A stretch of 64,000 nucleotides of DNA from NCBI GenBank assembly GCA_021731085.1, contig JAKFYB010000005.1, positions 48,482 to 112,481 on the forward strand, written 5' to 3'. A program made the translations under genes and the position numbers. Of the stretch, positions 5,376-21,094 are shown one piece after another. Origin of the DNA: Dehalococcoidia bacterium (lineage in GTDB: Bacteria; Chloroflexota; Dehalococcoidia; DSTF01; JACRBR01). How positions within the stretch are numbered: the stretch's first letter is position 1; each line of letters opens with the position of its first letter. Under the pieces are notes generated by a model. It was not told where the DNA came from, ran no database searches, and saw only the letters and a program-made list of their open reading frames with translations.

Positions 5376-5453
<78 letters not shown>

Positions 5454-5541
5454 AAGTAATTATCCGGTCGCCGCTGAATCTACAACATGTAGAGGAGGCG
5501 GCGATTCGTGCGTTTAGGGACGTACTAGTTTGGAGGCTAGA

Positions 5542-6504
5542 ATGGCTAAAATTGGAACTACGATGATCGAAACGCAGAGCCTCACTAGGTCGCAGGATCG
5601 TGAGGACATCAGGGACTTCCGTCACCACGTCACCGCGAAGGGTAGATCGCCCAAGACTCTCCGCACCTATGGCCAGGCAGCGGAAGCACTCGCCCTGTTC
5701 CTGTCCGAACGCGGAATGCCGGACCTGGAAAACGCCAAGCGCGAGCACGTCGAAGACTACATCGCCTCGATGTGGGAGAAGGGCAACAAGCCAGCCACGG
5801 TTCGCAACCGCTACGCCGGGTTATGTGCCCTGTTCAAGTGGATGCAAATATCCGACATCCGACGGGATAACCCGATGGAGCGCATCACGCCTCCAACCGT
5901 GCCGGAGCAGGTGCAGCCGGACTATACGCTCGACCAGATCCGCATCCTGCTCGATAGCATCCCCACGAAAACACTTCTTGATCTGCGCGATCGCGCCATA
6001 GTGGCGCTGCTCATCGATACCGGCTTGCGTTGTCAGGAACTCTGCGACATCAACATTGAGGACATCGACCGAGACGCGCGCCGCATTCACATTCGAGCTG
6101 GCAAGGGTGGTAAAGGGCGCTTGGTCGGATACAGCCACGACTCGGCTATGGTCGTAAACCGCTACATCCGCAAGCGCGGCGGCTGGGACATGCATGACCC
6201 GAAGGAGCCACTGTTGGCAGGTCGCGATGGGGCTGCGATGTCGCCCAACAGCGTGCGCTTGACCATGCTTCGCCGATTCGAGACAGCCGGTCTCGAATTC
6301 CACGGCACCCACGGTTTCAGGCGCGGATGGGGACAGGCGTATCTGGATGCTGGCGGCGATCCAATGGACCTCAAGCAGTTGGCAGGATGGTCGTCGCTAA
6401 CCATGTTGAACCGCTACGTGAAACGCACAGCACAGGAACGGGCGCTCCGCAACGTGGACCAGTTCTCTCCAATGACGCGCGTCACGGCACAAACCACGAA
6501 ATGA
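5542..6504 (+). CDS. int: Tyrosine recombinase/integrase
   Basis: SAM-like N-terminal domain; catalytic R (TGLRCQEL), K (GKGGKGR), HGFR, W (LAGWSS), Y (LNRYVK); SD GGAGG before ATG 5542. Confidence 0.93.
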   Translation: MAKIGTTMIETQSLTRSQDREDIRDFRHHVTAKGRSPKTLRTYGQAAEALALFLSERGMPDLENAKREHVEDYIASMWEKGNKPATVRNRYAGLCALFKWMQISDIRRDNPMERITPPTVPEQVQPDYTLDQIRILLDSIPTKTLLDLRDRAIVALLIDTGLRCQELCDINIEDIDRDARRIHIRAGKGGKGRLVGYSHDSAMVVNRYIRKRGGWDMHDPKEPLLAGRDGAAMSPNSVRLTMLRRFETAGLEFHGTHGFRRGWGQAYLDAGGDPMDLKQLAGWSSLTMLNRYVKRTAQERALRNVDQFSPMTRVTAQTTK

Positions 6505-7788: not shown

Positions 7789-7861
7789 TATCCAACTGCC
7801 GCGTCTCGCCGATTTCCTCGTAGGGCACGCACTACAGCGCGGACTTGCGAGGGCGGCATGA
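7760..7861 (+). CDS. 33-aa leader-like ORF translationally coupled to the primase-helicase
   Basis: GTG start 6 nt after a perfect AAGGAGGT (7747-7754); VLDHAEQQHDIQLPRLADFLVGHALQRGLARAA; TGA overlaps ATG of the next gene (ATGA). Confidence 0.4.
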   Translation: MLDHAEQQHDIQLPRLADFLVGHALQRGLARAA

Positions 7862-10047
7862 CATTCGACTACATCGATACGGCCAAAGGCGGAGCCAATC
7901 GCCGCAACAACGTGATGCGCATCGCCGACTTCCACCCAGATGGCGGGACGGACGTATACCGGACCTACTTGCGGTTCACCGAAGAACTGAAAACCTACAC
8001 GACGACGAACCTCAATGGCAGGGGCAAGCCGTCCGTCGCGAAGTACCCCGGCCCCGGTCTTGCCGACTTCGTGCCGCTCGACTTCGACAGCGAAGAGAAT
8101 CTCGCGCTCGCACTCGAAGACGTGCGGCGCTTTGTCGAACACCTCGACACACTCGAAGTGGACCGGCGCAGCGTGAGGTTCTACTTCAGCGGAATGAAGG
8201 GCTTTGCTGGGGAAATGCCCGCGAACCTCTTTGGCGGGTTCCAGCCGAGCACCGACATCACAAAACGTATGCGCGTACTTATCGAACGGCTGACGGCCAA
8301 CCTCGGACTATCGACGCTCGACACGGCCATCTACGAACCAATGCGGCTCTGGCGCGTTCCTAACACAAGGCACGGCAAGAGCGGACTCTACAAGATCCCG
8401 CTGACGGCGGATGAGGCGATGACCCTCGACATTGAGGAGATCCGCGCACTGGCGAAGATGCCGCGCATGATCGAGACGATGCCCGAAGGCGAGTTCGGCG
8501 CTAACTTCGACCTGCGCCAGCTCTGGGCCGCGACAAAGGGTGCTGAACCTGCGCCGACGACGGGAACAACCGATCCCGACGCGCCGATCACTTCCGGCAG
8601 CCGTCACCCGCATCTCCTCAGCGTCGCTGGTGCGATGCGTAGGCAAGGCTGCGACGAAGGCGAGATCCTTGACGCGCTACGGTCCGTGAACGCACGCCGC
8701 TGCGATCCACCGAAAGAAGACGCCGACCTCGTCACCTTGGCGCATGACGTCGTTGGTCGCTATCAGGAAGAACCGCAGGCGTACGTCATTCACGACGTTA
8801 AGAGGACCAGCTCCGTTGGTGGAGAAGATGATCGTCTTAGCGGTCCGGTGCTAGTGAACATGGCCGACGTGCAACGCGAGGAGGTGAGCTGGCTGTGGCG
8901 GTGGCGCATCCCATTCGGCAAACTCACACTCCTCGAAGGCGATCCCGGCCTTGGCAAGTCATGGCTGACGATGGCGCTTGCTACGTCGGTCACGCTCGGC
9001 TCCCACCCAGGCCTGCGGCTACCCGACGACTACAGCAACAGCGACCCGCGAAGCGTGCTGGTGATGACGGCGGAGGACGGCCTAGGCGATACCGTTCGGC
9101 CACGCCTCGAAGATATGGGTGCAGACCTAACGCGCGTCCAGGTGCTCACCGCAGTGATCAATGAGCAGGGCCGAGAGACGTTTCCATCGCTCGCACGCGA
9201 TCTCTGGCAGCTCGAATCTGCCTTGAGTGGAGGAGATTATGCGCTCATCATCATCGATCCGATCAACGCATACCTTGGCGGTGTTGATGGGCACCAGGAT
9301 GTTGACATCCGATCCGTTCTGGGACCGCTGGCGAAACTCGCCGAAAAGTACGGCGTAGCTATTCTCTGCCTTCGGCATATCACCAAGGGTGGACGCGACA
9401 AGAGCATCTATCGAGGCCTCGGCAGCATCGGTTACACCGCAGCCGCGCGATCTGTGCTGCTGGTCGGAGTCGATCCGGACGATGAGAACCTCCGTGTCGT
9501 CGTCTGTCACAAACACAACTTGGCGCCCGACTCTCCCGGCATCGCATTCGAGATCCAGAACGGCCAATTTTTCTGGCGCGGCGAGTCCAGCGTCACGGCC
9601 GACGCGATGTTGGCGCCGACTTCGACAGAGGATCGAAGTGTGCGCGAGGAAGCCGCTGACTTTCTGCGCGAGCTACTCGCGGACGGCCCGAGAAGGACGG
9701 AAGATGTGCAGCGCGAAGCGAAACGGATTGGAATCTCAGCCAGCACCCTCAAGCGCGCGCGGCACGACCTAAACATTCGCAGCGAGCGCGTCGGCGGACT
9801 CGGTGCAGCTGGGTGGTGGGAAATGCGGTTACCGTACGGCCTCACTAAGAGGACCAACGTTCCCAATGACGGGCACGAGAGCGCATTAGCAGCGGTTGAA
9901 GCCACCGAACCGAATTCCTCCGCACCACCTGACCCACTTAGCTCATCATCTCTGGCAGCGGCGCGCTTCGGTGAGTCGGCGATGGGTAGTCCTGCCTTGG
10001 AGGCCTACGCTTCGACGCCGCCTCGCTCCGCCGAATCACGCCACTAA
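7858..10047 (+). CDS. Replication protein: N-terminal AEP/PriPol-like primase domain plus C-terminal RecA/RepA-like (AAA_25) helicase
   Basis: DFD (LDFDSE), SGMKGF, RVPNTRHGKSGLYKIPL motifs; Walker A EGDPGLGKSWLT, Walker B ALIIIDPINAYL, RHITKGG. Confidence 0.8.
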   Translation: MTFDYIDTAKGGANRRNNVMRIADFHPDGGTDVYRTYLRFTEELKTYTTTNLNGRGKPSVAKYPGPGLADFVPLDFDSEENLALALEDVRRFVEHLDTLEVDRRSVRFYFSGMKGFAGEMPANLFGGFQPSTDITKRMRVLIERLTANLGLSTLDTAIYEPMRLWRVPNTRHGKSGLYKIPLTADEAMTLDIEEIRALAKMPRMIETMPEGEFGANFDLRQLWAATKGAEPAPTTGTTDPDAPITSGSRHPHLLSVAGAMRRQGCDEGEILDALRSVNARRCDPPKEDADLVTLAHDVVGRYQEEPQAYVIHDVKRTSSVGGEDDRLSGPVLVNMADVQREEVSWLWRWRIPFGKLTLLEGDPGLGKSWLTMALATSVTLGSHPGLRLPDDYSNSDPRSVLVMTAEDGLGDTVRPRLEDMGADLTRVQVLTAVINEQGRETFPSLARDLWQLESALSGGDYALIIIDPINAYLGGVDGHQDVDIRSVLGPLAKLAEKYGVAILCLRHITKGGRDKSIYRGLGSIGYTAAARSVLLVGVDPDDENLRVVVCHKHNLAPDSPGIAFEIQNGQFFWRGESSVTADAMLAPTSTEDRSVREEAADFLRELLADGPRRTEDVQREAKRIGISASTLKRARHDLNIRSERVGGLGAAGWWEMRLPYGLTKRTNVPNDGHESALAAVEATEPNSSAPPDPLSSSSLAAARFGESAMGSPALEAYASTPPRSAESRH

Positions 10048-10111: not shown

Positions 10112-10819
10112 ATGGCCAAGCAGCCCGGTCTCGGCGACCCGCTATTCGGCACTCCCATGGCGGGTGCGCTCGTCAAGTCGAAGCAGCGCGTCGCCGACCA
10201 CGGCGAGGTGTTCACACCCCCATGGATGGTCGCGGCGATGCTCGACCTCGTGAAGGACGAAAGCGAACGCATCGACTCGCGCTTTCTCGAACCCGCATGC
10301 GGCAGTGGAAACTTCCTCGTCCCCGTCCTGCATCGAAAGCTCGCTGCTGTGGAGGCCAAATTCAGCAAGGCCGACTTTGAGCGGCGGCAATACGCATTAC
10401 TCGCCGTCATGTGCATCTACGGCATCGAACTTCTTCCAGACAACGTCGCCGAGTGCAGGACTAATCTGCTCGACACGCTAAAGGATTATCTGGATCTGGA
10501 CGACGCAGACGATCTCTACCGAGCAGCCTCCTTCGTCTTGTCACGAAACATCGTTCACGGCAATGCACTGAGCATCCGCACCGACACTGGCGAGCCAATC
10601 ACGTTCGCCGAATGGGGATATCTGGGTAAGGGCAAGTTCCAGCGGCGCGACTTTCTGCTGGACAACCTCACAGAGAGTTCCGCTTGGAGCAAAGAGGGCG
10701 ACATGTTCGCCGCACTCGGCAAGCACGAAATCTTCACACCGGTCAAGACGTATCCGCCTATGACTGTAGCTGAGCTAGCGTTCTTGGCGGTCTACAGCGT
10801 CCATAAGGAAGCCGTATGA
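10112..10819 (+). CDS. DNA methyltransferase-like subunit A (SAM-binding motif, no NPPY)
   Basis: GEVFTPPWMVAAMLDL and FLEPACGSGNFLVPVL motif I; no NPPY/DPPY in 235 aa; ATGA overlap with next gene. Confidence 0.75.
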   Translation: MAKQPGLGDPLFGTPMAGALVKSKQRVADHGEVFTPPWMVAAMLDLVKDESERIDSRFLEPACGSGNFLVPVLHRKLAAVEAKFSKADFERRQYALLAVMCIYGIELLPDNVAECRTNLLDTLKDYLDLDDADDLYRAASFVLSRNIVHGNALSIRTDTGEPITFAEWGYLGKGKFQRRDFLLDNLTESSAWSKEGDMFAALGKHEIFTPVKTYPPMTVAELAFLAVYSVHKEAV

Positions 10820-12429
10820 CCACGCAGCCTGGGTTCACGATCCGGGGTCGCAATCCGGATGTGCTGACGTGCATCGCAAACCTCTCCAACGATGAAGTCT
10901 TCACACCGCCTGAGTTCGCGAACCGCATGCTGGATGCTATCGCGGACGCTTGGGCGGCGGACTCCGGTGGCGCCAACATCTGGGCCGATCCAAAGGTCAG
11001 ATTTCTAGATCCATTCACGAAGTCCGGCGTGTTTCTCCGCGAGATCACAAGCCGTCTCACTTCAGGTTTGGCGGACGCGATTCCGGACCTCCAGGACAGG
11101 GTGGAACACATCGTAACCAAGCAGGTATTCGGTATTGCCATCACGTATAAGACGAGCCTGCTTGCCCGGCGGAGCGTCTACTGCTCGAAACACGCAAAGG
11201 GGAAGCACTCGATTGCCAAGAGCTTCGCTACCGACAGCGGGAACATATGGTTCGAGCGGACCGAGCACACTCGGGTGAGCAACAAGTGCAGCTATTGCGG
11301 TGCCAGCAAGGAGATGTTGGATCGCCCAGACGAGCTGGAAACGCACGCATATGCATTCATCCACACCAACGACATCAAGGCGCGAGTCGCTGAGTTATTT
11401 GGAGGCACCATGCAGTTCGACGTCATCATTGGAAACCCGCCGTACCAACTGGACGACGGAGGCTATGGCACGAGCGCAGCGCCCATTTATCAGCTCTTCG
11501 TGCAACAAGCCAAGGCACTGGAACCGCGCTATTTGTCAATGGTCATCCCTGCCCGTTGGTTCGCAGGCGGCAAGGGGCTGGATGAATTCCGAGAGTCGAT
11601 GCTTACAGACGATCGACTGCGCTCAATTGACGACTACTTGAGCGCATCGGATGTGTTTCCGGGCGTCGGCCTCAAGGGTGGCGTCTGCTATTTTCTCTGG
11701 GACCGGAACAATCCCGGACCGTGTCGAGTTAGCACGCACTTCAAAGACTGGCCTGTCTCGACAACGACTCGCCCGCTTCTTGAAGGCGGAGCGGACGTGT
11801 TCATCCGGTTCAATGAAGGGTTATCGATCCTCAAGAAGGTCGTTGAGTTCGAGACGGGGGACACAGCCTCGGTCCTCTTGCCCCAAACCAAGCGTTTCGA
11901 CCAGCTGGTTAGCTCTCGGAAGCCCTTTGGACTGGAGACAACATTCAAGGGCAAGGCGTCCAAAGGCACCGGTGACTTACTTGTTTATCAGAATGGCGGC
12001 ACAGGTTACGTCGCAAAGACTTCAATTTCCTCGGGCGGTCAATTCATCGACAAATGGAAGGTGTACGTGGGTCGAGCGGCTCCGGGGACTGGCAATAGGG
12101 ACACGTACCCGCACAAGATCATCAGTACGCCGTTCGTTGGAGAGCCAGGCACCATCTGCGCTGAGACATATCTCTGTATAGGCCCGTTTGACTCGAAGAG
12201 TCAGGCTGACAGCGTCCTGTCTTATCTCTCTTGTCGGTTGACGCGCCTGTTGATTCTGCTACACAAGCCTTCACAAGACACGACCCGTAAGGTGTACACG
12301 TTCGTTCCAACACAAGCATGGACGAAGTTGTGGACCGACGAGGATCTGTATACCAAGTACGGCCTTTCCGGGGATGAGATCGCTTTCATCGAGAAAGTAG
12401 TTCGTCCTATGGGCGAGGCTGATGAATAA
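10816..12429 (+). CDS. Eco57I/type II-like adenine DNA methyltransferase subunit B with Cys/His insertion
   Basis: EVFTPPEFANRMLDAI, RFLDPFTKSGVFLREI, catalytic FDVIIGNPPYQL; Zn-ribbon-like CSKH...CSYCG. Confidence 0.8.
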   Translation: MTTQPGFTIRGRNPDVLTCIANLSNDEVFTPPEFANRMLDAIADAWAADSGGANIWADPKVRFLDPFTKSGVFLREITSRLTSGLADAIPDLQDRVEHIVTKQVFGIAITYKTSLLARRSVYCSKHAKGKHSIAKSFATDSGNIWFERTEHTRVSNKCSYCGASKEMLDRPDELETHAYAFIHTNDIKARVAELFGGTMQFDVIIGNPPYQLDDGGYGTSAAPIYQLFVQQAKALEPRYLSMVIPARWFAGGKGLDEFRESMLTDDRLRSIDDYLSASDVFPGVGLKGGVCYFLWDRNNPGPCRVSTHFKDWPVSTTTRPLLEGGADVFIRFNEGLSILKKVVEFETGDTASVLLPQTKRFDQLVSSRKPFGLETTFKGKASKGTGDLLVYQNGGTGYVAKTSISSGGQFIDKWKVYVGRAAPGTGNRDTYPHKIISTPFVGEPGTICAETYLCIGPFDSKSQADSVLSYLSCRLTRLLILLHKPSQDTTRKVYTFVPTQAWTKLWTDEDLYTKYGLSGDEIAFIEKVVRPMGEADE

Positions 12430-14956
12430 GACCGTCGAGGAAATCCTCGCGCCCAAGCCGGAGGCCCAGCCACGCATCTATGCGTATTCAATCGACGACG
12501 AACCACACAAGGGTCTTCTTAAAATCGGGCAAACGACGCGCAATGTGAAGCAGCGCGTCGCCGAACAACTCAAGACAGCCGCAATCAAGAACTTCACCAT
12601 CGAGTTGGACGAGTCCGCCGTGCGCGATGACGGCGCGCCGATCACCGATCACGCCGTTCGGTCGGCTCTCATCAAGAGAGGTTTCGCGAACGACGATGGG
12701 GAGTGGGTTAAGTGCACGATCAAGGACGTTCGCGCGGTCCTAATCGAGCTGCGCACAGGGCAGCGGTTCAGCGGAACTCACGACCAGAACTTCAAGATGC
12801 GTCGAGAGCAGGCAGAGGCCGTTGCCCGGACCCATGCGTATTTCCATTCCATCTGGAATGAGGACATGCACGCAGTCCCTCGGTTCCTCTGGAACGCCAA
12901 GATGCGATTCGGCAAGACGTTCGCCGCTTACCAATTGGCGAAGAAACTCGGAGCTAAACGGATACTCGTGGTGACCTTCAAGCCAGCCGTCGCGGACGCA
13001 TGGCAAACAGACCTTGAGTCACACATCGATTTCGATGGTTGGCAGTATCTGTCGCTTCTTTCTGGTGCCGATCCCAGCAAGTTCGGACGCAAGACACCGG
13101 TCGTCTGTTTCGGCTCCTTCCAAGATCTTCTCAGCAAGGAGAAACATGGGATCAAGGCGAAGAACAAGTGGGTGCATGAACTGAACTGGGACCTCGTTGT
13201 GTTCGATGAGTACCACTTTGGAGCCTGGCGTGAGTCCGCGAGAGAACTCTTCGAGGGCGAGGAGGAGGCAGTTACCAGAACTGAAGCCCTTTTGGAGGAT
13301 GCGAAGCACCTGAACGAGAAGGTTGCCGATCTGCAGGAAACCTTGGAGAAAGAAGGCGATTTTCTTCCCATCACCACCAAGGCGTACCTATACCTCTCGG
13401 GCACGCCCTTCAGGGCGCTGCAAACGGGGGAGTTTATTGAAGATGCAATCTTCAACTGGACATACACCGACGAGCAACGCGCCAAGGAAGAGTTCGCGAA
13501 AAACAATCCGGGTCAATGGAATCCGTATGGCGCGCTTCCTCAAATGTCGCTGCTTACCTACCAGATGCCAGAGGAGCTAGTCGGAGTTGCGAGCACAGGA
13601 GAGTTCGACGAGTTCGACCTCAACGAGTTCTTCGCCGCATCAGGCGTGGGCGAGGGCGCGAAGTTCAAGCACAAGAGCGACGTGGAGAAGTGGCTGAACA
13701 TCATACGAGGCTCGTACGTGCCGCACGCGGTTGAACATCTTAAGGCGGGAGCGCGACCGCCATTTCCATACTCAGACCCTGACCTACTGCCGTATCTCCA
13801 ACATTCATTCTGGTTTCTCCCGAATGTCGCGGCGTGTTTTGCGATGAGGAACCTCCTCTCCGAAAAACACAATACGTTCTGGCGCGACTACAACGTGCAC
13901 GTCGCAGCCGGTACGTCGGCGGGAACCGGGTTAGGTGCCTTGCCTCCGGTGCGCAAGGCCATCGGCACAGGCTTTGACTCGAAGACGATCACCCTATCGT
14001 GCGGGAAGCTCACGACAGGGGTAACTGTGCCGCAATGGTCATCCATCCTGATGCTGCGCAACCTCAAGTCGCCTGAGACCTACTTTCAGGCGGCATTCCG
14101 TGTGCAATCGCCGTGGTCTATGAAGAACCCCAATGGCGACGATCCGAACGAGGAGGAGATATTCAAACCCGTCTGCTTGGTATTCGACTTTGCGCTGACA
14201 CGTGCCTTGAGACAGATCTCTGAGTACGGCGTCGGGCTGTCGCCAAACGAGCCAAGCCCAGATAAGGCACTCAAGGAGCTGCTGTCCTATCTCCCCGTGC
14301 TTGCGTATGACGGCGCGAGCATGATCCAAATCGATGCAGGTGGGATTCTCGATGGCGCCCAGACGGGAACCGCAGCGACGCTCTTGGCTCGCAAGTGGCA
14401 GTCTGCGCAGCTCGTGAACGTAGATGACGCCACTCTACGCCGGGTCTTGGACAACCCTGCGGCTCTCGCCGCCGTCGAACGGATCGAGGGCTTTCGCGCG
14501 CTCGGCGACAACATCATCGAGATGATCATCAGCAAGAATGAGAAGGTCAAAGAGCTGAAGAAGAAAGCCAAGGACGGCGATCTGACAACGAAGGACAAGA
14601 AGCAACTCACCGACGACGAGAAGGAATGCAAGTCCAAGCGCAAGCTCGTCCAGGAGAAGCTGATCAAGTTTGCCACGCTCATTCCCGCGTTCATGTATCT
14701 GACGGACTTTCGCGAACACACGCTGCAAGATGTGATCACCAAAATCGAGCCGGAATTGTTCCAGACGGTGACGGGACTGACCGTGAAGGACTTCGACCTG
14801 CTCGTCAGCTTGCAGGTGTTCAATACCCTCCAGATGAACCAGGCTATCCGCGCCTTCCGTCGCTACGAAGACGCCTCACTGCGCTACACAGGCATCGACA
14901 GCCATGAGGACCTAACCCACTACGGCCTATACGACACCGTGGTGGCGAAGGACTGA
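12422..14956 (+). CDS. GIY-YIG (T5orf172-like) nuclease fused to SF2 DEAD/DEAH-type helicase; putative restriction subunit
   Basis: N-term IYAYSIDDEPHKGLLKIGQTTRNVKQRVAEQL; Walker A NAKMRFGKTFAAYQL; VVFDEYHFG; YLYLSGTPFRAL; 8-nt overlap with upstream MTase. Confidence 0.8.
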   Translation: MNKTVEEILAPKPEAQPRIYAYSIDDEPHKGLLKIGQTTRNVKQRVAEQLKTAAIKNFTIELDESAVRDDGAPITDHAVRSALIKRGFANDDGEWVKCTIKDVRAVLIELRTGQRFSGTHDQNFKMRREQAEAVARTHAYFHSIWNEDMHAVPRFLWNAKMRFGKTFAAYQLAKKLGAKRILVVTFKPAVADAWQTDLESHIDFDGWQYLSLLSGADPSKFGRKTPVVCFGSFQDLLSKEKHGIKAKNKWVHELNWDLVVFDEYHFGAWRESARELFEGEEEAVTRTEALLEDAKHLNEKVADLQETLEKEGDFLPITTKAYLYLSGTPFRALQTGEFIEDAIFNWTYTDEQRAKEEFAKNNPGQWNPYGALPQMSLLTYQMPEELVGVASTGEFDEFDLNEFFAASGVGEGAKFKHKSDVEKWLNIIRGSYVPHAVEHLKAGARPPFPYSDPDLLPYLQHSFWFLPNVAACFAMRNLLSEKHNTFWRDYNVHVAAGTSAGTGLGALPPVRKAIGTGFDSKTITLSCGKLTTGVTVPQWSSILMLRNLKSPETYFQAAFRVQSPWSMKNPNGDDPNEEEIFKPVCLVFDFALTRALRQISEYGVGLSPNEPSPDKALKELLSYLPVLAYDGASMIQIDAGGILDGAQTGTAATLLARKWQSAQLVNVDDATLRRVLDNPAALAAVERIEGFRALGDNIIEMIISKNEKVKELKKKAKDGDLTTKDKKQLTDDEKECKSKRKLVQEKLIKFATLIPAFMYLTDFREHTLQDVITKIEPELFQTVTGLTVKDFDLLVSLQVFNTLQMNQAIRAFRRYEDASLRYTGIDSHEDLTHYGLYDTVVAKD

Positions 14957-16631: not shown

Positions 16632-17225
16632 CTAGCTCCGGTAATCAGTGTAGTCCTGCACAGCCAGAAAGTCGCCTTTCCCCAAGCGGTGTGCCCATAT
16701 TCCGGGAACAATCAAACCCTGCGGCGTAGTGTCGAACCAAGCGGCCGTTTCTATCCGTACGCTGTCCATACGCTGGACGTACTCGACGGCAGGTAGAAGG
16801 TCGGTGTCATTCGACATCAAAATGCCGATGTCGTAATTTCCGTCCACCGCGTTGGTGACAAGATCTACGGCCAAGGCTACATCGACTCCCTTCTCTTCGG
16901 CCTTCTCTGTGGGCCAATGGAACGGGTAGCGCAGAGTACGCGCAAACACGGTTGCCCCTGCTGCCTCCCATGCCCGATTGCGCTTCAATTCAGGTGCGTA
17001 GCTCTTCGGGTCCTTAGTTGCATCTGGGCGACCTGTATGAATGCGGACCTCGATGAGGTCTCGCTCAGCAGCCTTCTGCCCAGGTGGTTCCTTTTGGCAG
17101 AGCAATTGCGCAAGCTGGCAAGGGTTCGTGTGGCCGTCCAAGAAGCTCTTTGGTTGTGCAAAGAATGTCTCACGTGCCCGGCGGTAGCAGTTCTGTGCAT
17201 CAATGAATACGAATACTCTTGCCAT
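16632..17225 (-). CDS. NYN-domain (LabA/DUF88, PIN-like) protein
   Basis: VFVFIDAQNCYRRA, KGVDVALAVDLVTNAVDGNYDIGILMSNDTDLLPAVEYVQ. Confidence 0.8.
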   Translation of the reverse strand: MARVFVFIDAQNCYRRARETFFAQPKSFLDGHTNPCQLAQLLCQKEPPGQKAAERDLIEVRIHTGRPDATKDPKSYAPELKRNRAWEAAGATVFARTLRYPFHWPTEKAEEKGVDVALAVDLVTNAVDGNYDIGILMSNDTDLLPAVEYVQRMDSVRIETAAWFDTTPQGLIVPGIWAHRLGKGDFLAVQDYTDYRS

Positions 17226-17941: not shown

Positions 17942-18166
17942 GTGTCGAATGCTGCGGAAAGGATTGACGAACCAACTATGAACTCACCTGTAACTACACC
18001 CGTTCTCTACACAAAGAAGCAGGTCGCTGAGATGGTCGGTTGCGCGGAGACAACGGTGCAGCGTTGGATCGTGGAAGGTCGCTTGCATCCAACCAGGCTG
18101 ACCAAGCGCACTGTCCGAATCAGTCCGGCAGCCCTCGATCAATTCATCGCCGAACGCACTGCCTGA
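17942..18166 (+). CDS. Excisionase-like HTH protein
   Basis: LYTKKQVAEMVGCAETTVQRWIVEGRLHPTRLTKRTVRISPAALDQFIAERT. Confidence 0.75.
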   Translation: MSNAAERIDEPTMNSPVTTPVLYTKKQVAEMVGCAETTVQRWIVEGRLHPTRLTKRTVRISPAALDQFIAERTA

Positions 18167-18379
18167 TCATGCGCGGGCGCGCGTCGCGCCTTTTTTGGCG
18201 CTCGACTTCTTGAGCCGTTCGCGATAGCGTCGCTTTCTGGCGGTCTCCCGGCATCGCTCCGGAGAATACGTCTGGTTGGTCAGTCCGAGGAACGTCTCAC
18301 CACACTCCGGGCAGACCTTCTTGGTCCGTTTGCGTTGAGCGGCCAGCTGGCGCCCGAGTTCGCTTGCATCCATTGACAA
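18167..18379 (-). CDS. Small basic zinc-ribbon-like protein, possible regulator
   Basis: KVCPECGETFLGLTNQTYSPERCRETARKRRYRERLKK; divergent from ardC across a dyad-rich region. Confidence 0.55.
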   Translation of the reverse strand: MSMDASELGRQLAAQRKRTKKVCPECGETFLGLTNQTYSPERCRETARKRRYRERLKKSSAKKGATRARA

Positions 18380-18390
18380 AGTCTAGGATT

Positions 18391-18452
18391 TGTCCCTAAT
18401 GTCGTCAACTAGGGACTTGCAATGGTGTCCCTAGTATGCGTTAATAGGGACA
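18391..18452. promoter_or_regulatory. Two operator-like dyads TGTCCCTA-N11-TAGGGAC(A/T)
   Basis: TGTCCCTA 18391-18398 / TAGGGACT 18410-18417; TGTCCCTA 18426-18433 / TAGGGACA 18445-18452; identical 11-nt spacers, dyads 35 bp apart. Confidence 0.75.
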
Positions 18453-18563
18453 CAGCCAGTCCATCAGAATCGGAGCGCCTATGACGTAAGTCCCAATCAA
18501 CCAAGAAGCCCGGCCAGTGCGTCAACACCGACCGGGCGCGAGTCAAAGGAGAGTTGACCTCCC

Positions 18564-19886
18564 ATGACACAGACACAGCCTAACAAGACCTCTGAGGCAT
18601 TGTCGCGACTCGAAACGGGAGTCGCCGCAATCCAATCAAGCGACGACTTCAAGCGATACCTGCAAGTCGCCGCGCGGTTTCACCACTACTCGTTCAACAA
18701 CCAAATCCTGATCGCAGTACAGCGGCCAGACGCGACCAAGGTCGCGGGCTATCGTGCCTGGCAGGAACTCGGGCGCCAGGTCCGCAAGGGCGCTAAGGGC
18801 ATCCAAATCCTGGTGCCCTACGTCACACGAACTAGCGACGCTAGCGACGATGAACCGGCGCCCGTTCCGCAGAAGCGATCGGGCACCGCTGTTCGGTTCG
18901 GCGTGGGCTACGTGTTCGACGTCGCGGACACAGAGGGTGTCGAACTACCAACACTCGACTACCAGCACACTCAAGGCGAAACAGCTCACGATCTTTGGCG
19001 TAGAGCGCTTGGCGTAGCGTCACAGCACGCCTGCAACGTCACAAGCGAAGACCAGCACATCAGCGCCACTGGCTACTACAACCCCAGCACGCGCACCATT
19101 TGGCACCAGGGCAGCCTGTCGCTTGACGGGCGTGTCTCAACCGTTCTGCATGAGCTGGCGCACATGTTCGACCATGACGCGCACCAGGCGGCCGGCGCAT
19201 CCTTTGACTACATGAACCACCGAGGCGAACGCGAAACGGTTGCCGAGGCTGTCGCCTACGTCGCAGGGTTGCACTTCGGACTCGACACGTCGCGCGAAAC
19301 GTTCACCTACGTCGCAACGTGGGCGCGCGATGGCGCAACGCTCAAGGCGCGTCTCGGCGAGATCCAGAAGCTGGCGAACGCATTGATCGCAGCACTCGAA
19401 GCGATAGAGCCCGAACCGGATAACTGCACTAGCTTGGGAGAACAATCAGACGTAGAATCTGAACACAGCGCCGATCACTCTAGGTTGGACAACCGCCGTC
19501 CAACTCTTAATCAGCCGGTTCTGGGTTCGACTCCCGGGCGGCTCACCACGCAGGCACTTCGAACGCACACGCTTGCCGTGTGCGTTTTCTATTTCCGCGG
19601 GCTGCCTTTCCCGCGGATGCGCGCCCACACGCTAGCCGGTTCGACTCGCGCGGCGGATTCGGCGCTCTTCAGGGCGCGGAGTTCGGCTGCTGCGTTGTCC
19701 GCGGCTGCGGAGTCGATGGCCGCCTGCATGCGCGCCCGGTGCCAAATCTCTTCTTGGGGATCGGTGTCACGCGCGACTCCGTGGGCTTCGCCGGACTGGG
19801 ACCACGGATCGAGCGCTGTTCCGGTCGCCGGGCGAAAGAATGTCTTGAAGCACAGCGTCCCCCCGACATCTTCGCCATCGACTTGA
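18564..19886 (+). CDS. ardC: ArdC-type antirestriction protein (N-terminal ssDNA-binding domain plus zincin); frame runs through attR into the chromosome
   Basis: FHHYSFNNQILIAVQRPDATKVAGYRAWQELGRQVRKGAKGIQILVPY; HELAHMFDH zincin motif; residues from 19503 are encoded by attR and flank. Confidence 0.8.
   Translation: MTQTQPNKTSEALSRLETGVAAIQSSDDFKRYLQVAARFHHYSFNNQILIAVQRPDATKVAGYRAWQELGRQVRKGAKGIQILVPYVTRTSDASDDEPAPVPQKRSGTAVRFGVGYVFDVADTEGVELPTLDYQHTQGETAHDLWRRALGVASQHACNVTSEDQHISATGYYNPSTRTIWHQGSLSLDGRVSTVLHELAHMFDHDAHQAAGASFDYMNHRGERETVAEAVAYVAGLHFGLDTSRETFTYVATWARDGATLKARLGEIQKLANALIAALEAIEPEPDNCTSLGEQSDVESEHSADHSRLDNRRPTLNQPVLGSTPGRLTTQALRTHTLAVCVFYFRGLPFPRMRAHTLAGSTRAADSALFRARSSAAALSAAAESMAACMRARCQISSWGSVSRATPWASPDWDHGSSAVPVAGRKNVLKHSVPPTSSPST
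19503..19550 (+). repeat. attR (truncated tRNA-Lys 3' copy)
   Basis: Identical to 5406-5453; no acceptor/D-arm upstream. Confidence 0.95.
19563..19590 (+). terminator. Rho-independent terminator just beyond attR (probable original tRNA-Lys terminator)
   Basis: ACGCACACG-CTTGC-CGTGTGCGT-TTTCT. Confidence 0.75.
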
Positions 19887-21094
19887 AGTGGGCCACCGAT
19901 GTCGATCGCCTGCTTGCTCGACTTCATGGACACGACGAGATCGGCGTCGCCGTCCGGGCATGTCACGACGAGTTCGTATGTCCGTCCGGCGGACGACGGC
20001 TGCGGAGCGAGGTCTACCGTCAGCCACTCGCCGTCGACGACCTGCAGCGCGAGCAGGCGCATCGCGGCGATGTCGTCGCCGTGGTCGTCACGGACCGTGA
20101 AGAGCAGGTGCCGCATGCTCGGTCCGGCGGGACGGGCCATCAAGATGTCTATACGCGCGAGACCGTCACGCGCGGCGACGAAGGTCTGCGAGATCGTGCG
20201 GCCTGCGCTGAGCATCGGCAACTGGCCGTCGGCAACCCGCTGCTCGACATCCATGACGAGCGGGTCGGCGGGAAAGAGACAGCCGCCGAAGCTCTCATCA
20301 TTCCAAGCATCTCGAGCGTTGCGCACGGCTTGATGGAAGTCATCCGTCGGCGTTTCCACCGACGTTTTGCGGCCGATGCCGAACACGGTGTGCGGATTTT
20401 CTACGTTGCCCTGCACGAGCACGTAGCGGGAGGCTAGCGCGCGCATCAGGTGGTCGAACATCATCGGCGTGAAGCGCCAGTAGTCCGAGGGGTGCGCATG
20501 GATCGGGAAGTTCATGTGCGACGACATGACGACAACGCCGCCCGGTCGCAGCACGCGCGTCACTTCCTCCATCGCCGCCAGCGGTTCGAGGACGTGCTCC
20601 AGCGTGTCGAGGAGGATCACTGTGCCGACGGACGCGGTCGCGAGCGGCAGGCGGTGGATCGTGCCGACGCAATCAACACCCGCCCCGTGTCGCATGTCGA
20701 AGCCCGCGTACGCTCCCGCGGTGAAATACGGGCGCAGATCGGCGTAGTCCTCCTGCCCTTCCGTCCGCAGCGAGCCGATGTCAACGACGGGCGCCGGAAA
20801 GACGGCCGTCTCGGCGAGAAGCTGTACGAACTGCTTGACGTTTGGGCGCATGGACTCCAACGCTTTCGGCTCTGTGTCGGGAAGTATCGACCGAGTGAGA
20901 ATACTACGGGATCGGCTCGACGAAGCTAGTGAGAGTCCTACACAATCGCGCTGATTGCGGACGCGATCGCGACAAACGCCGACGCGAACAACAGGCAGAA
21001 CACGATGCCCCGAAACGCTGCTGGCGCGACGCGCTGCGCAATCTGGCCGCCGACCACGAAACCTGTCGCGACAGCAGGAAGCGAGGCAGCCCAC
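19589..21094 (-). CDS. Class I SAM-dependent methyltransferase (Methyltransf_11-like) with C-terminal extension; true start probably downstream of 21094
   Basis: PVVDIGSLRTEGQ, DTLEHVLEPLAAMEEVTRVLRPGGVVVMSSHMNFPIHAHPSDYWRFTP. Confidence 0.75.
   Translation of the reverse strand: MGCLASCCRDRFRGRRPDCAARRASSVSGHRVLPVVRVGVCRDRVRNQRDCVGLSLASSSRSRSILTRSILPDTEPKALESMRPNVKQFVQLLAETAVFPAPVVDIGSLRTEGQEDYADLRPYFTAGAYAGFDMRHGAGVDCVGTIHRLPLATASVGTVILLDTLEHVLEPLAAMEEVTRVLRPGGVVVMSSHMNFPIHAHPSDYWRFTPMMFDHLMRALASRYVLVQGNVENPHTVFGIGRKTSVETPTDDFHQAVRNARDAWNDESFGGCLFPADPLVMDVEQRVADGQLPMLSAGRTISQTFVAARDGLARIDILMARPAGPSMRHLLFTVRDDHGDDIAAMRLLALQVVDGEWLTVDLAPQPSSAGRTYELVVTCPDGDADLVVSMKSSKQAIDIGGPLQVDGEDVGGTLCFKTFFRPATGTALDPWSQSGEAHGVARDTDPQEEIWHRARMQAAIDSAAADNAAAELRALKSAESAARVEPASVWARIRGKGSPRK

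Follow-up and report, generated by a model that had tools for sequence, protein, structure and literature searches.

The ardC reading frame (18564–19886, + strand) of a genomic island continues through the right att site of the island into the chromosome. It lies in a window of 64 kb, that is, the whole stretch of DNA analysed, with 63% GC. This arrangement raises the question of what changes between the integrated and the circular state: the C-terminus of ArdC, the transcription of the integrase gene int, or both.

The island measures 14.1 kb and is bounded by a 48-bp exact direct repeat, with the attL core at 5406–5453 and the attR core at 19503–19550; no such repeat was expected in shuffled sequences. 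The repeat spans tRNA-Lys(CTT) between its anticodon loop and its 3' end and includes two further bases, and the island is inserted in the 3' half of this gene. According to ARAGORN, tRNA-Lys (5376–5451, + strand) is rebuilt intact at the left junction, and in the host genome tRNA-Lys(CTT) was found in just the two att-bearing places. In tRNA-Lys of a family-level relative (G007) sits an element of 2.48 kb between copies of a 47-bp tRNA-Lys repeat. Since this repeat begins at the same base as the core in the window, the left boundary of the core is independently supported. The element itself (L142, G007:C9, 3503–6029) has a leader resembling that of int in the window while int was not found, and it has the appearance of a relative that is either cis-mobilisable or decayed. 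A perfect 7-bp inverted repeat, GTTGGAC/GTCCAAC (19485–19505), abuts the attR core of the island. In addition, the host genome contains a second related integrase (L099, G000:C3:143600-163500) by tRNA-Pro, on the strand opposite to it. The integrase match contains one stop, a 40-bp tRNA repeat lies 6.6 kb off, and the element is probably decayed.

The island starts with int, a tyrosine recombinase gene (5542–6504, + strand; Pfam Phage_integrase, 2e-27), followed on the same strand by a gene for a replication-type protein with AAA_25 and PriCT_1 domains (7858–10047, Pfam). The next three ORFs (10112–14956, + strand) encode a DNA methylase-type protein, an Eco57I-type methylase and a ResIII helicase (Pfam; PADLOC PDLC03626 and PDLC03375). 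They match separate parts of a single type IIG restriction enzyme model of 1359 aa, PDLC03626, and by sequence they resemble a split type IIG restriction system. The island thus holds a putative split restriction cassette together with an antirestriction gene, ardC. An NYN-domain protein (16632–17225) matches the PADLOC candidate HEC-09, and an excisionase-like HTH gene lies at 17942–18166 on the + strand (TIGR01764, 34.3 bits against a cut-off of 28.8). Pfam gave no match to relaxase, type IV secretion or transfer genes in the ten main ORFs, a scan that took in only part of the smaller ORFs. With neither a relaxase nor a transfer gene among these matches, the label of an integrative and conjugative element (ICE) is not supported for the island. 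All plasmid matches to int were below 60% identity, with 27–29% among the matches listed, and viral contigs gave two distant ArdC matches only, with neither int nor a leader match.

The geometry of the frame agreed with the first-pass annotation. From 19381 there is no in-frame stop until the one at 19884–19886, and the frame passes the attR core in 16 whole codons that read TLNQPVLGSTPGRLTT, followed by 111 codons further downstream. The integrated-state ORF is therefore 440 aa long and ends in ...PPTSSPST. When the ends of the island were joined in silico, the predicted attP junction was ...CTCACCACGAAGTAA; ArdC then has 330 aa and ends in RLTTK*, with the TAA at 5457–5459, and the int ATG at 5542 follows on the same strand 82 nt after the stop. 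The same junction bears out the claim that int has different upstream sequence in the two states. By inspection, an ssrA-like LAA end is absent from both C-termini. The chromosomal extension of the frame (19551–19886, + strand) runs antisense to a methyltransferase gene. The start of this gene, placed earlier at 21094 (19589–21094), is more likely at 20851, because the longer ORF overlaps a TauE gene.

When points and frames were chosen at random in the window, 22.6% remained open for 112 codons or more, and a different frame downstream of attR is open for 294 codons, so the 111-codon run past the core is ordinary here. The conserved part of ArdC covers residues 1–280 (18564–19403, + strand), as delimited by Pfam, invariant columns and AlphaFold. 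It comprises the ArdcN domain (Pfam, 1.1e-11) and an intact HExxH...E metalloprotease site, of which H196, E197, H200 and E224 are invariant in 21 sequences. Homologues align only up to about residue 280–287, and of the 69 whose end could be read, 49 terminate no later than 20 residues beyond position 280, the remainder being fused to further domains or longer-tailed. AlphaFold ordered the protein to about residue 283, with pLDDT below 50 at residues 287–368, 370–374 and 384–440, a test that is weak alone since the alignment has no depth there. A PDB sequence search with the 440-aa ORF returned nothing at E 0.001. The part of ArdC that changes is thus a non-conserved tail that is predicted to be disordered.

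The homologue comparison proposed in the first-pass annotation gave no further case. Of 70 distinct ArdC loci, this one alone has a 3' tRNA fragment in the 700 nt downstream of ardC, and no long element gene crosses attR in the five other elements for which attR was found (L099, L106, L115, L117 and L142); in L142 there is nothing but a frame with 24 codons before att. A gene crossing attR was accordingly rejected as a rule of the family. A conserved ardC–attP–int operon was also rejected: in the nearest relative with both genes (G007, L092), ardC lies about 7–8 kb from int on the other strand. Since neither these five elements nor the 69 other ArdC loci share the arrangement, the crossing looks individual and not selected.

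The non-conserved stretch directly before the core (19404–19502, + strand) has no homology past residue ~285, carries arm motifs, and its GC3 is 0.52 over 33 codons vs 0.72 in the ArdC core; the DNA for residues ~286–312 is, by its sequence, probably attP-arm DNA. The left arm coincides with the int leader (5454–5541, + strand), which contains a stem-loop, TTATCCGG and CTAGTTTGG motifs and a short leader ORF. The motif CTAGNTTGG occurs three times in 64 kb (5525, 19429 and 19480), on one strand and always within the two arms, while 3 of 100 shuffles gave three matches anywhere in the window. Its relative ATAAYT was found 29 times in the 27 leaders of related integrases, compared with 2.7 in single-base shuffles. 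An inverted TTATCCGG pair lies at ~5460 and ~19423, the right-arm TTATCCGG-type site being near 19415–19424. As a whole, the two arms did not resemble each other significantly more than random pairs of segments (p 0.12–0.19), and the arm reading is supported only by the placement of CTAGNTTGG and the family-wide enrichment of ATAAYT.

The low GC3 of the tail can also be read in another way: ArdC may normally have stopped near residue 285–290, and this stop may have been lost near 19400, by a real frameshift or through an error of assembly, so that the frame now runs into att. Stops are present in the +1 and +2 frames at 19384–19460, so a one-base indel near 19400 would yield an ordinary ArdC length, and many homologues end no more than 20 residues from position 280. 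The ArdC core, however, carries no internal sign of error, and this explanation is considered rather unlikely.

A feature inside the extended frame that the first-pass annotation missed is a putative intrinsic terminator directly after attR (19561–19587, + strand). It consists of an 11-bp stem with a T-rich tail and folds at -21.4 kcal/mol (z -3.32). Strong hairpins follow tRNA-Lys at a similar distance in two relatives whose sites lack this island (G005 and G002), while no clear terminator hairpin was found after tRNA-Lys in two others (G003 and G001; L145 and L136). Integration has thus most likely moved the terminator of tRNA-Lys to the far end of the island. Since the genes flanking tRNA-Lys are not conserved in the relatives, the empty site was deduced from the tRNA and the hairpin only. 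No terminator-like site was found between tRNA-Lys and int, which have the same orientation and are separated by 90 nt from the tRNA end to the int ATG. With the terminator at attR and none in between, transcription that starts at the tRNA promoter should extend into int. A loss of int transcription in the integrated form is therefore not supported, and the proposal that integration uncouples int is replaced by a presumed change from reading on the ardC side to reading on the tRNA side. No sigma-70-like promoter was found before tRNA-Lys or int, nor was one matched at the ArdC end (+ strand, 18100–19700); both scans covered the sigma-70 type only, and the host may use others.

The int leader also contains a predicted stem-loop (5466–5506; -33.3 kcal/mol, z -3.25) that covers a Shine-Dalgarno-like GGAGG. 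After the hairpin and upstream of int, there is a leader ORF of six codons with a GTG start (5508–5528). Equivalent hairpins, of different sequence, cover the ribosome-binding site in the leaders of the closest related integrases, which lie at other tRNA genes. Stem-loops over a Shine-Dalgarno-like sequence, with differing stems, were observed in leaders L063, L065–L068 and L142. The folding z was below -2 in 9 of the 22 leaders tested, and where a tRNA lies within 500 bp upstream of a related int, the two share their orientation in 21 of 27 cases. Translational control of int via leader stem-loops is possible.

This anatomy has known counterparts. In ICEKp1, a displaced tRNA-Asn terminator, co-transcription of the tRNA with int and damping stem-loops in the leader were shown by experiment (Liu et al. 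2026, PMC13023037); a promoter at the 3' end is used after excision, and the results for ICEEc1 and ICEclc were similar (PMC13023037). The island shares with these elements the integration at a tRNA 3' end, int beside the tRNA in the same orientation, the shift of the tRNA terminator to the element's 3' end, leader stem-loops (predicted here) and the joining of the opposite end to int on excision. Unlike in ICEKp1, the 3'-end feature facing int is ardC itself, with no recognised promoter; in addition, no conjugation genes were seen and the host is not a Gammaproteobacterium. Regarding the protein, mycobacteriophage BPs also has attP inside a gene frame, with a C-terminus that changes on integration (PMC4557955). 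There, integration shortens the repressor and removes an ssrA-like degradation tag (PMC4557955), whereas here ArdC is lengthened and is not a repressor. The ArdC of R388 has the same combination of a ssDNA-binding N-terminal domain and an HExxH metalloprotease domain, but its last residue is 297, shortly beyond the fold (PMC7213743), whereas the island protein has a long non-conserved tail crossing att. The tmRNA-integrated vcrABC islands of Dehalococcoides likewise insert site-specifically into the gene of a small stable RNA, but differ from the present island in cargo and target (PMC3146451).

From the computed att sites, reading frames, terminator-like hairpin, leader hairpins and unconserved tail, we infer the effects on transcription and protein as follows. 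Integration would rebuild tRNA-Lys at attL and push its own terminator beyond attR, placing int directly behind the tRNA with no terminator between, so that read-through from tRNA-Lys would transcribe int and the leader stem-loop would damp it. In the circular state, the ardC stop would precede int by 82 nt and transcription would reach int from the side of ardC. The change in the ArdC C-terminus would be a by-product: ardC is the last gene and its frame extends across the DNA of the attP arm and the core, so that the two states would differ in a disordered tail only. A state-dependent int transcription switch of the ICEKp1/ICEclc type, with the ArdC change as a by-product, is in our view probably the best explanation as a whole. 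The circular-form switch proposed earlier by analogy with ICEclc is plausible by anatomy, but lacks a recognisable promoter at the ArdC end. A tRNA-terminator switch appears better supported than a switch at the ArdC C-terminus, and it has already been described elsewhere in ICEs.

The terminator could also act on ardC itself. Since it lies inside the extended frame, well before the stop at 19884–19886, the ardC mRNA made in the integrated state may contain no stop codon; ribosomes would then stall and tmRNA would tag ArdC for destruction, while in the circular state the frame ends in LTTK* and ArdC would be stable, so that it would be made just after entry, at the time of need. The host genome has a tmRNA gene, and R388 ArdC is needed in recipient and not in donor cells (PMC7213743). 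However, a ribosome that follows the polymerase closely could keep the terminator from acting, and an arrangement unique among 70 ArdC loci carries no sign of selection, which makes this course of events very unlikely. The full version, in which trans-translation removes the integrated-state product and the circular form co-transcribes int with a gene for stable ArdC, is hardly more than an outside chance; if true, it would be a new way of making an antirestriction protein at the moment a new host is entered. Least probable is the idea that the extension itself alters ArdC function and that ardC-driven expression of int is confined to the circular form. The junction arithmetic behind it is right and ICEclc and ICEKp1 do have circular-form int promoters (PMC13023037), but the extension is non-conserved, predicted to be disordered and of ordinary length, homologues lack the arrangement, the sigma-70-type scan showed no promoter at the ArdC end, and tRNA-Lys should read int when integrated. 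A functional extension in place of the natural stop, as first proposed, was rejected as the leading idea because the tail is not conserved, has low pLDDT and is of a common open-frame length.

The favoured reading, a transcription switch by displacement of the tRNA terminator, is known from ICEs such as ICEKp1, and its probable presence here suggests that it reaches to small islands of a distant group of bacteria. In addition, the island illustrates how a terminal gene that has no stop of its own ahead of att can come by a state-dependent C-terminus accidentally.
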